A stretch of DNA of 64,000 bases from Candidatus Poribacteria bacterium. Its GTDB lineage: Bacteria; Poribacteria; WGA-4E; PCPOR2b. How positions within the stretch are numbered: the stretch's first letter is position 1; each line of letters opens with the position of its first letter. The notes beneath the pieces are model-generated. The model was not told the origin of the DNA. It was given only the letters and a program-made list of their open reading frames with translations, and ran no database searches. Made by a program: the position numbers and the translations under genes. The stretch lies in the NCBI GenBank assembly GCA_022822005.1, contig JAJECO010000053.1, forward strand, positions 62,001 to 126,000, read 5' to 3'. Shown here one piece after another: positions 49,458 to 52,484 of this stretch.

Positions 49458-49517
49458 GTTTGTAGTCGCACGATTCATCGCCCGTCGAAACGCCCAATGA
49501 ATTGGGCTACTACAAAC
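49458..49517. repeat. REP palindrome of the TTTGTAGT type at the recQ start
   Basis: GTTTGTAGT at the left and ACTACAAAC at the right, with CGATTCATCG and GCCCAATGAATTGGGC hairpins inside. The same block forms the middle of family-1 copies B, D and F. The ATG at 49497 that would begin the longest recQ frame lies inside it. Confidence 0.75.
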
Positions 49518-49589
49518 CGTCAACGGCTAACCAATGGCACACCTACGAACCGCCGATTCATCGCCCGTTTAGCCGAGGAAAGGAACTTC

Positions 49590-51383
49590 TTGTTGATTAT
49601 CGAAGCCATCCGTAGAATAATTGACAATTTGCTTAATCGAGGGAGTAAAGCATCGAACAGTGCGCCAAGCGATCTTCCAGATCCACGCGTAGCGTTGAAG
49701 GAACATTTCGGGTATGACGACTTCCGCGAAGGTCAACGTGAGGTAGTTGAGAAGCTTCTATCTGGAAGAAACCTGCTCGGTGCTTTTCCAACTGCGTTTG
49801 GGAAATCCATCTGCTATCAGTTGCCGGGACTGATGCTCCCGGGGCTTACGGTGGTGATTTCGCCGTTAATCTCGTTGATGAAAGATCAGGTAGATGCCTT
49901 GCAAGAGAGGGGGATTGATTCGGTAGGCTTACTGAACAGCAGTTTGACTCCTGAGGAGTATCAACAGGAACTGAAACGATTAGAAAACGGTGAGATGAAG
50001 CTGCTGTATGTGTCGCCTGAACGGTTTCGCAGCCGCCGTTTCCTGAACACCTTAAAATCCCATAAAATTTCGCTGTTCGTGGTTGATGAAGCACATTGCA
50101 TCTCTCAGTGGGGTCATGACTTTCGACCAGATTACCTTGCGCTTCGGACTGCTATCCAAGCGGTGAATCCCTATTCAGTCGCGCTATTCACGGCGACGGC
50201 AACGCCCGATGTGAGAGAGGACATCGTAAAACAGCTCCGAGTTGAGAAGTGCGACATCTTAATCCAGAGTGTAGAGCGTCCCAATCTAAAATTCAGTGTC
50301 TGCGAGGTGCCGGGCGAACCGGAAAAGTATCAGTTGCTTGCAAAGCAGCTGGAACAACTCACCGGGAAAGGGATCGTGTATGCCGGTACGCGGCGGCAGA
50401 CTGAAGAGATTGCGGCATATCTCAAGGGTGAAGGCTATCGCGTCGATTTCTATCACGGCGCTAGGGAGGAATCGGAACGGACGCGGGTGCAAGATGCGTT
50501 TTTCGACGATACAACGGCTGGCATCGAAATCGTAGTAGCGACCAACGCATTCGGGATGGGGATTGATAAGCCCGACATCCGGTATGTTATCCATTGGTCA
50601 ATTTCGGGATCGCTCGAACACTATTATCAGGAAGCGGGGCGCGCGGGACGGGACGGTAAGGATTCACAGTGTATCCTATTCTTCAGTTCAGGTGATCGAC
50701 GTTTGCAGGAACATTTTATAGAGCAGAGTGCACCGAACAAGCCGAACCTTTTAAATGTGCTGAAACTGATCGAGGACTCGCCATCGGTCGGTAAGTTCCG
50801 GTTGGTCAACACGCAGGAGGTGGAATCCAGAGGTGATGTTGATGAGAGTAGAATTCGGGTGGGGATTAGCTATCTCGAAAAACTCGGTTTCCTCGAAAGG
50901 AGGTCCAACAGCCCATCGAACATGTCCGTGGATCTTATCAACGATTCAAACGGCGAGTCGAGGATATTGGAGAGTCTACGGGATCAGCCAGAAATTCGGA
51001 CAATCGATTTCTGCCAAGAACATGACCTACCTCCAGATGAATTGATAGAGGAATTGAGTGATCTACAAAGCGACGGGGATCTAAGATACTCGGGGGCGGA
51101 GGATACGATGTTGATTAAGTTGTTTCACGGCAGCAAACTGTTCGGGAACATGTCCGAGAACGAGGTAGGAGAGAAGCAATATATCCAAAACAAGCGGGGG
51201 CAGCTCGACCAGATGATTCTCTATGCGAAAACGGGCAGTTGCAGGGGCAAGTGGGTGAGACAATATTTCGGGGAACGGGTCGATGACGACTATCGCTGCA
51301 ACCTCTGTGACATCTGTGATCCAAGCCTCCTTGATGCTTACAACTCACTCATCGAAGAAGTCATGCAGCACCACACCCCGTAG
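49590..51383 (+). CDS. recQ: ATP-dependent DNA helicase RecQ
   Basis: A RecQ-family 3-prime to 5-prime helicase for recombination and repair. It has FRxGQ (FREGQREVV), Walker A PTAFGKS (most RecQ have TGGGKS), DEAH box VVDEAHCISQWGHDFR, ATATPDVR, GRAGRDG, and the zinc site WVRQYFG...CNLCDIC. No HRDC domain. The frame runs back to an ATG at 49497, but that ATG is in a REP repeat; TTG at 49590 with GAGGAAAGG before it is more likely. The stop TAG is the first triplet of the REP at 51381. Confidence 0.9.
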   Translation: MLIIEAIRRIIDNLLNRGSKASNSAPSDLPDPRVALKEHFGYDDFREGQREVVEKLLSGRNLLGAFPTAFGKSICYQLPGLMLPGLTVVISPLISLMKDQVDALQERGIDSVGLLNSSLTPEEYQQELKRLENGEMKLLYVSPERFRSRRFLNTLKSHKISLFVVDEAHCISQWGHDFRPDYLALRTAIQAVNPYSVALFTATATPDVREDIVKQLRVEKCDILIQSVERPNLKFSVCEVPGEPEKYQLLAKQLEQLTGKGIVYAGTRRQTEEIAAYLKGEGYRVDFYHGAREESERTRVQDAFFDDTTAGIEIVVATNAFGMGIDKPDIRYVIHWSISGSLEHYYQEAGRAGRDGKDSQCILFFSSGDRRLQEHFIEQSAPNKPNLLNVLKLIEDSPSVGKFRLVNTQEVESRGDVDESRIRVGISYLEKLGFLERRSNSPSNMSVDLINDSNGESRILESLRDQPEIRTIDFCQEHDLPPDELIEELSDLQSDGDLRYSGAEDTMLIKLFHGSKLFGNMSENEVGEKQYIQNKRGQLDQMILYAKTGSCRGKWVRQYFGERVDDDYRCNLCDICDPSLLDAYNSLIEEVMQHHTP

Positions 51384-51406
51384 GCGGGGCATCTTGCCCC
51401 GCCCTA
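51381..51406. repeat. REP palindrome upstream of RAYT
   Basis: GGCGGGGCATCTTGCCCCGCC core, flanked by TA on both sides. It begins with the recQ stop codon and lies 28 bases before the RAYT start. Confidence 0.9.
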
Positions 51407-51434
51407 TGCCAACATATGATCCAAAGGAAAAACC

Positions 51435-51977
51435 ATGAATATTCTTCCAAACCGAAAAAGTCATCAATTACGACAAGGACGACATGCAATATCTGGCGCA
51501 TACTACTTTTTAACGACTGCCACATTCAAACGGAGGCACATTCTCTCAAATCCCCAAGTTGCACAAATTATTTTCGATTCCCTCCAATGGCTGGAAAACA
51601 AAGACCGAATCAGATGGGTATGTATTATGATAATGCCTGACCATATTCATGCGGTTATTCAACTAGGCTGTAACCAAACCCTGTCAAGCGTTATGCATTC
51701 CTTTAAGAGTTTCACAGCGAAGAAGATTAACGCGCTGCATAGCCATATAGCGGGGCAAGATGCCCCGCCTACGGGAGAGGGGCATATAACGGGGCAAGAT
51801 GCCCCGCCTACGGGGGCTGGCGCGGTATGGCAGGAAGGATATTATGATCGTGGAATTCGAGGGGAAGAATCGTTGAATGAGATTATACGATATTGCTATG
51901 AGAATCCTGTTCGAAAGGGTTTGGTGAAATGGGCGAAGGATTACCCATATTGGTGGTGTAAATTTAAGATGGAGTAG
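51435..51977 (+). CDS. REP-associated tyrosine transposase (RAYT, IS200/IS605-like Y1)
   Basis: A 180-residue Y1 HUH transposase of the RAYT group. It has the HUH metal motif in MPDHIHAV and the catalytic Tyr region (YDRGIRGEESLNEIIRYCYENPVRKGLV) with the closing WWCKF. RAYTs are domesticated single-strand transposases that move REP palindromes. Here REPs flank the gene on both sides, and two more REP units lie inside the gene in frame, each adding GQDAPPTG between the HUH and Tyr parts. AAGGAAA precedes the ATG. Confidence 0.9.
   Translation: MNILPNRKSHQLRQGRHAISGAYYFLTTATFKRRHILSNPQVAQIIFDSLQWLENKDRIRWVCIMIMPDHIHAVIQLGCNQTLSSVMHSFKSFTAKKINALHSHIAGQDAPPTGEGHITGQDAPPTGAGAVWQEGYYDRGIRGEESLNEIIRYCYENPVRKGLVKWAKDYPYWWCKFKME
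51751..51814. repeat. Two in-frame REP units inside the RAYT gene
   Basis: CGGGGCAAGATGCCCCGCCT followed by ACGGG occurs at 51751 and again 39 bases later at 51790. Both keep the frame (39 is a multiple of 3) and each encodes GQDAPPTG. The core is the same as in the flanking REPs, in the reverse sense to the one at 51381. Confidence 0.93.
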
Positions 51978-51983
51978 GGAATC

Positions 51984-52009
51984 GGCGGGGCAAGATGCCC
52001 CGCCTACGG
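51984..52009. repeat. REP palindrome downstream of RAYT
   Basis: GCGGGGCAAGATGCCCCGCC followed by TACGG, 6 bases after the RAYT stop and inverted relative to the upstream copy. A weaker relative, GGTGCCCGCACCTATGGTGC, follows near 52040. Confidence 0.9.
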
Positions 52010-52148: not shown

Positions 52149-52484
52149 CTAAGATGAGCGGCGAGTTTTCAGTTGTTCAAGGTATTCCTGGGTACGTTTA
52201 ATCTCTCGACGCGCAGCGTCGTCGGCTTTGCGCTTTGCTGCTGTTTTAGCGTTGTACTCAAGTCCCCACGAACCTTTTCTGAGGCGTTTGAGAGTAAATT
52301 CCCCACCCGCCTGCTGGTTCACGTAATCGAGCAGATTTCGCAAAATCCAGTAGACATCTGACGCAGCATACCGGAGATCGCTGTCAGCCCCCTGTTCCCC
52401 GATAAAATCGAGGGCGAGTCTCGCCAATTCAACAGCCTCTTTCGCGGTGTAATGCTTGTCACCGTCTAACTGAATGGTTACCAT
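52149..52484 (-). CDS. Unknown small helical protein
   Basis: A 111-residue protein that I do not recognise. It begins with a short strand (MVTIQLDGDKHYTAKEAVELA) and continues as helices, ending in a charged stretch (AAKRKADDAARREIKRTQEY). The start suggests a small DNA- or protein-binding module, but nothing proves it. It follows the XdhC-like gene by 18 bases on the same strand, so both may be one transcript. Confidence 0.5.
   Translation of the reverse strand: MVTIQLDGDKHYTAKEAVELARLALDFIGEQGADSDLRYAASDVYWILRNLLDYVNQQAGGEFTLKRLRKGSWGLEYNAKTAAKRKADDAARREIKRTQEYLEQLKTRRSS

Follow-up and report, generated by a model that had tools for sequence, protein, structure and literature searches.

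A RAYT gene of a Candidatus Poribacteria bacterium, whose product is the presumed agent of REP spread, carries, within its own reading frame, two copies of the REP palindrome that also flanks it on both sides. The loop which these copies encode is derived, REP-made, in frame and unique among the relatives sampled, and the catalytic and GTAG-recognition residues of the protein are kept. The locus lies in a stretch of 64,000 nucleotides, termed here the window, the nearest named relatives of which are MAGs of Poribacteria, and its features are collected in Table 1.

Table 1. Features of the RAYT locus, with positions in the window.
Feature	Position	Strand	Remarks
recQ-like helicase, upstream anchor of the locus	49497..51383	+	ORF
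Upstream flanking REP	51378..51402	-	GTAG on + strand at 51380-51383; ssDNA hairpin -12.7 kcal/mol
RAYT / TnpA_REP gene, 180 aa	51435..51977	+	PF01797; 4ER8 by sequence and fold; invariant columns
Inserted 69 nt, residues 105-127 (IAGQDAPPTGEGHITGQDAPPTG), direct REP doublet	51747..51815	+	Without counterpart in 22 aligned relatives; boundaries inferred
In-gene REP 1, full 25-nt core	51750..51774	+	GTAG on - strand; ssDNA hairpin -11.0 kcal/mol
In-gene REP 2	51789..51813	+	First stem base G->A, end pair lost; ssDNA hairpin -9.0 kcal/mol
Downstream flanking REP, in inverted orientation to its upstream counterpart	51985..52009	+	ssDNA hairpin -12.9 kcal/mol
Small conserved ORF, 111 aa, second (downstream) anchor of the syntenic locus	52149..52484	-	ORF

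REP copies at the locus and in the genome

Four exact copies of GGGGCAAGATGCCCC were detected, at 51386-51400 (-), 51752-51766 (+), 51791-51805 (+) and 51987-52001 (+); by chance, 0.19 occurrences would be expected over the whole window if two mismatches were permitted. Around the outer two, the sequence forms a perfect inverted repeat of 26 nt (51378-51403 against 51984-52009, 100% complementary) that encloses the RAYT gene, and the inner two stand in direct orientation, 39 nt apart, where they encode IAGQDAPPTGEGHITGQDAPPTG. The cores within the gene and those flanking it have the same sequence. An earlier note on this DNA had described the four REPs, the outer two as inverted to each other and the inner two as in frame and 39 bases apart, and the places it gave proved exact. 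The GTAG of the upstream REP supplies the stop codon (TAG, 51381-51383) of the recQ-like gene, the C-terminus of which varies among congeners.

In the 6.0-Mb assembly the 15-nt core occurs in 67 exact copies, versus none for the reversed control, and it is therefore a true repeat of this genome. Alignment of 63 copies revealed a conserved unit of ∼25 nt, GCGGGGCAAGATGCCCCGCCTACGG, whose opposite strand reads GTAG and then a hairpin. The unit has the features of a GTAG-REP, i.e., GTAG beside a hairpin of 7 bp or more, a short loop and many copies. The contexts of 64 of the 67 copies were surveyed, gene placement being judged from the reading frames without a gene caller. Only for the two REPs of the RAYT gene was a position deep within a credible gene observed. 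Where another REP falls in a long frame, it precedes the likely start, lies on the opposite strand, or the frame shows no signs of a gene. The position of the RAYT copies in this survey is notable, but it represents one event. Like other intragenic (codogenic) REPs, they lie wholly within an ORF and are missing from the homologous proteins compared.

Many REP cores (L005, L008, L010, L116, L129-L132 and similar) are enclosed by longer palindromes (AGGACTTACGCA...TGCGTAAGTCCT) or are part of a repeat family of greater length (TGTAAAAACAGAGTGCAATTACGG...), and look as if they were nested in MITE-like elements. In a relative from the sister genus (G006), the flanking REP bears a compensated stem variant, GCGCGGC/GCCGCGC, which fits cognate REPs.

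The RAYT gene and its inserted loop

The 180-residue ORF is a RAYT / TnpA_REP gene. It matches the Pfam family Y1_Tnp (PF01797, E=2.3e-11), and E. coli TnpA_REP (4ER8) is its top match by sequence among solved structures and also ranks first in a fold search with its product (E=3.5e-09). The HUH histidines (H70 and H72) and the catalytic tyrosine (Y153) are invariant across 23 aligned sequences (this RAYT and 22 relatives), and Y153 is aligned with residue 115 of 4ER8. The residues that read GTAG in the E. coli RAYT are W94, Q95 and R104 (PMC6006769); by the alignment offset these are W132, Q133 and R142, all of which are present. The locus thus unites the features of a RAYT: the Y1/HUH domain, the HUH pair with a single tyrosine, the W/Q/R set and two inverted flanking REPs. 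The domain match, 4ER8 and the perfect inverted repeats bear out the identity proposed in the earlier note, a RAYT with inverted REPs on both sides. Cutting of single-stranded REPs by the loop-bearing protein is a putative activity.

At the site of the loop the Poribacteria RAYT has 26 residues, versus three in the 22 aligned relatives, a net gain of 23 codons. The loop was likewise not seen in about 15 further copies, as judged from match spacing. The exact limits of the insert would hold if the three ancestral residues were HSH; they had to be inferred, because the nearest full-length loop-less gene is only ∼78% identical in DNA, and an exact empty site is not visible among the relatives. 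When 65 different RAYTs were scanned for internal REPs (pattern GT[AG]G with a stem of 7 bp or more), a single case was identified, the Poribacteria gene, and a REP-like hairpin was present within 300 bp in 30 of the 65. Longer relatives (L164-L169) differ in length downstream of HUH or ahead of WQ, with no REP hairpin. The possibility that the loop is a conserved family feature is ruled out by its absence from the 22 aligned relatives and from those assessed by spacing. The earlier note had proposed an alignment of relatives and had named two findings that would speak against its claim, namely relatives with the same loop but no neighbouring REPs, and the peptide as a family trait; every relative examined lacks the loop, and neither finding was encountered.

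Structure, reading frame and state of the gene

In the AlphaFold model of the loop-bearing RAYT (mean pLDDT 83), the fold around the loop is confident, while residues 114-128, between helix 83-108 and W132, are predicted to be disordered (pLDDT<50). The REP-encoded loop ends five residues before W132. The model, a check suggested in the earlier note, fits a tolerated, exposed loop. The REP core is stop-free in five of its six frames and the insertion site is a surface loop, so that a foldable protein, with a flexible segment encoded by the REPs, is probably still produced. The gene has stayed open, as the earlier note had stated, with its 180-codon frame and catalytic residues intact.

Comparison of the N-terminal part with the G006 gene gave dN 0.14 and dS 0.92, and dN was well below dS with respect to both the G006 and the G001 genes, values that are not specific to the time after the insertion. 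Versus the remnant of the gene in the congener G003 (see below), four silent changes and one replacement were counted. At the sequence level, the dN/dS values and the mostly silent changes constitute a purifying signal on the RAYT, from which the period after insertion is not singled out. We infer that the RAYT may still be active and its loop neutral.

Origin of the REP doublet

In the syntenic locus of four congeners there is no RAYT between recQ and the 111-aa ORF. The genome of G003, ∼93-95% identical around the locus, contains a 101-nt RAYT remnant at this place, and the gene, loop aside, was therefore present before this genome (G000) and G003 split. At the upstream breakpoint of the remnant, an upstream REP arm (GTAGGCGGGGC) is joined to sequence just past in-gene REP 2.

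The account that we favour, and consider reasonably probable, is that a REP-RAYT-REP module (REPtron) settled between recQ and the small ORF before the two congeneric lineages split, and that a tandem pair of the RAYT's own REPs entered a permissive loop of the cognate gene, in the segment that links the end of the long post-HUH helix to the W-Q motif. With a net gain of 69 nt, the frame would have been preserved. The pair may have come in as a preformed tandem unit, or one REP may have doubled later. In the sister genus G006, direct tandem REP arrays of up to about a dozen units with a 39-40-nt period are evident (L137, L138 and L141), and their spacers, such as GGGAGGCGAGGGCACAT, are close to the in-gene spacer GGGAGAGGGGCATATA. 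A donor doublet with the in-gene spacer was not found in this genome, in which the only comparable doublet (C76:28382) has 84% identity.

The main rival to entry as a tandem unit is the entry of one REP followed by a 39-nt tandem duplication through slippage, in which the RAYT would play no part. We regard it as possible, though clearly less probable than the favoured account. The in-gene copies stand in direct orientation at a distance of exactly 39 nt, match at 31/32 positions and share a CATATA 5' flank, all of which a duplication would explain. However, it also predicts that the spacer should begin like the sequence after REP 2, and the two, GGGAGAGGGG and GGGGGCTGGC, differ. This mismatch, together with the resemblance of the in-gene spacer to those of the G006 arrays, favours the tandem unit. 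As for the route of entry, the RAYT itself may have moved the REP into its own gene by cutting and joining single-stranded REPs, with duplication or template switching as potential contributors. Both cutting and recombination in vitro have been reported for RAYTs (PMC8266576); RAYT-driven REP integration in cells was not found in the literature covered.

It is also conceivable, but unlikely, that the RAYT is a decaying pseudogene with a frame that is open by chance. The remnant in G003 and the four congeners without the gene would agree with decay, and a random 69-nt REP insert would have a fair chance of being both in frame and open; yet the catalytic and guide-binding residues are all kept, the frame is intact over its whole length and the differences from the G003 remnant are mostly silent. 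A mosaic of two RAYT halves, recombined at their REPs so as to leave the doublet at the join, is very improbable. For the N-terminal part of the RAYT, grouping with the G006 gene was recovered (100/99), and for the C-terminal part the G001 gene has the highest identity (85% aa), but grouping of the latter part with G006 was not rejected (AU p=0.46), the maximum-chi-square breakpoint was not significant (p=0.21) and a join at exactly matching codons is in itself unlikely. The identities thus hint at a breakpoint at the loop, for which the tests give no support, and this candidate was set aside. Finally, REPs are repeats, and the assembly is a metagenome bin in 97 contigs, such that an assembly artefact has to be considered. 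We deem this scarcely credible, since the 69-nt insert is short and bounded on both sides by unique RAYT sequence, and the locus is syntenic with that of five congeners.

Relation to known systems

In-frame GTAG-REPs, often in the form of dimers that add 20-30 residues, have been described in repair, replication and RNA genes of several bacteria, as have REPs whose GTAG gives genes their TAG stops (Di Nocera et al. 2013, PMC3733652). The present locus has in common with these “REP-decorated” ORFs the in-frame GTAG-REPs, the dimer and the supply of a TAG stop, here to recQ. In contrast to the targets named in that text, the gene affected here is the RAYT itself. Rickettsia palindromic elements (RPE; cited in PMC3733652) are likewise short palindromes, inserted in frame within genes which continue to be read, but that paper links neither RPE nor CGTC repeats to transposase genes, whereas the REPs described here are linked to a RAYT. 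With the known RAYT / REPtron systems (Nunvar et al. 2010, PMC2817692; 4ER8) the locus shares HUH and tyrosine, WQ...R, inverted flanking REPs and scattered copies; it differs in that substrate units also occur within the reading frame.

In the literature searched, supplementary lists and subscription papers aside, no RAYT with an internal REP was encountered. The view of the earlier note that no such case had been described consequently stands, within that literature, for the RAYT as target, but not for in-frame REPs in genes, which were known (PMC3733652). The new point is limited to the target, a cognate RAYT gene that took up the REPs and seems to have remained readable throughout. An in-frame REP pair in the cognate gene bears on how REPs spread and on the role of the RAYT in that spread. 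The proteins with and without the loop constitute a natural pair for a comparison of REP cutting, and the in-gene pair provides a target site for working out how REPs are joined in.

RAYTs nested in frame inside other genes

A few distant matches, followed by a search with a Verrucomicrobia RAYT, disclosed RAYTs that are read in frame within long genes of unrelated bacteria, mostly with in-frame REP-like hairpins on both sides; by eye, their HUH and Tyr motifs are present. A RAYT nested in a host gene is the mirror image of a REP nested in a RAYT. The occurrence of such RAYTs in leucyl-tRNA synthetase and several defence genes may matter more than the REPs in the RAYT. A more far-reaching reading, which we consider improbable, is that the internal REPs have a role beyond that of cargo: binding or cleavage of its own gene by the RAYT, or a change in REP recognition through the loop five residues from W-Q, would make the spread of REPs self-limited. 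In a broader form of this reading, REP-RAYT modules may be adapted to in-frame life in coding sequence, as the nested RAYTs suggest.

In three Verrucomicrobia MAGs (L040, 947-4291; L043, 986-4252; and L042), a complete REP-flanked RAYT is in frame in the editing domain of leucyl-tRNA synthetase. The surrounding REPs include GTGGGCGGGACGCCCAC, and two direct copies are located downstream in L043. RAYTs with REP-like hairpins were also observed in frame in an HsdR-like type I restriction subunit (L157), in type IIG restriction-methylases (L158 and L160) and in PglX (L041), as well as in HmaB-like methylases (L159, L161 and L162), two of them in one single-contig genome. In L163 (420-3476), a RAYT is in frame in a SNF2-type helicase gene (1019 aa frame). 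In L047, L052 and L058, the open frames upstream of the RAYTs run through tandem repeats (e.g., PVRRESPVGGESFPRF and GCKPRQRWWDGLIKRGEVANLASGAVGSVKGMR).
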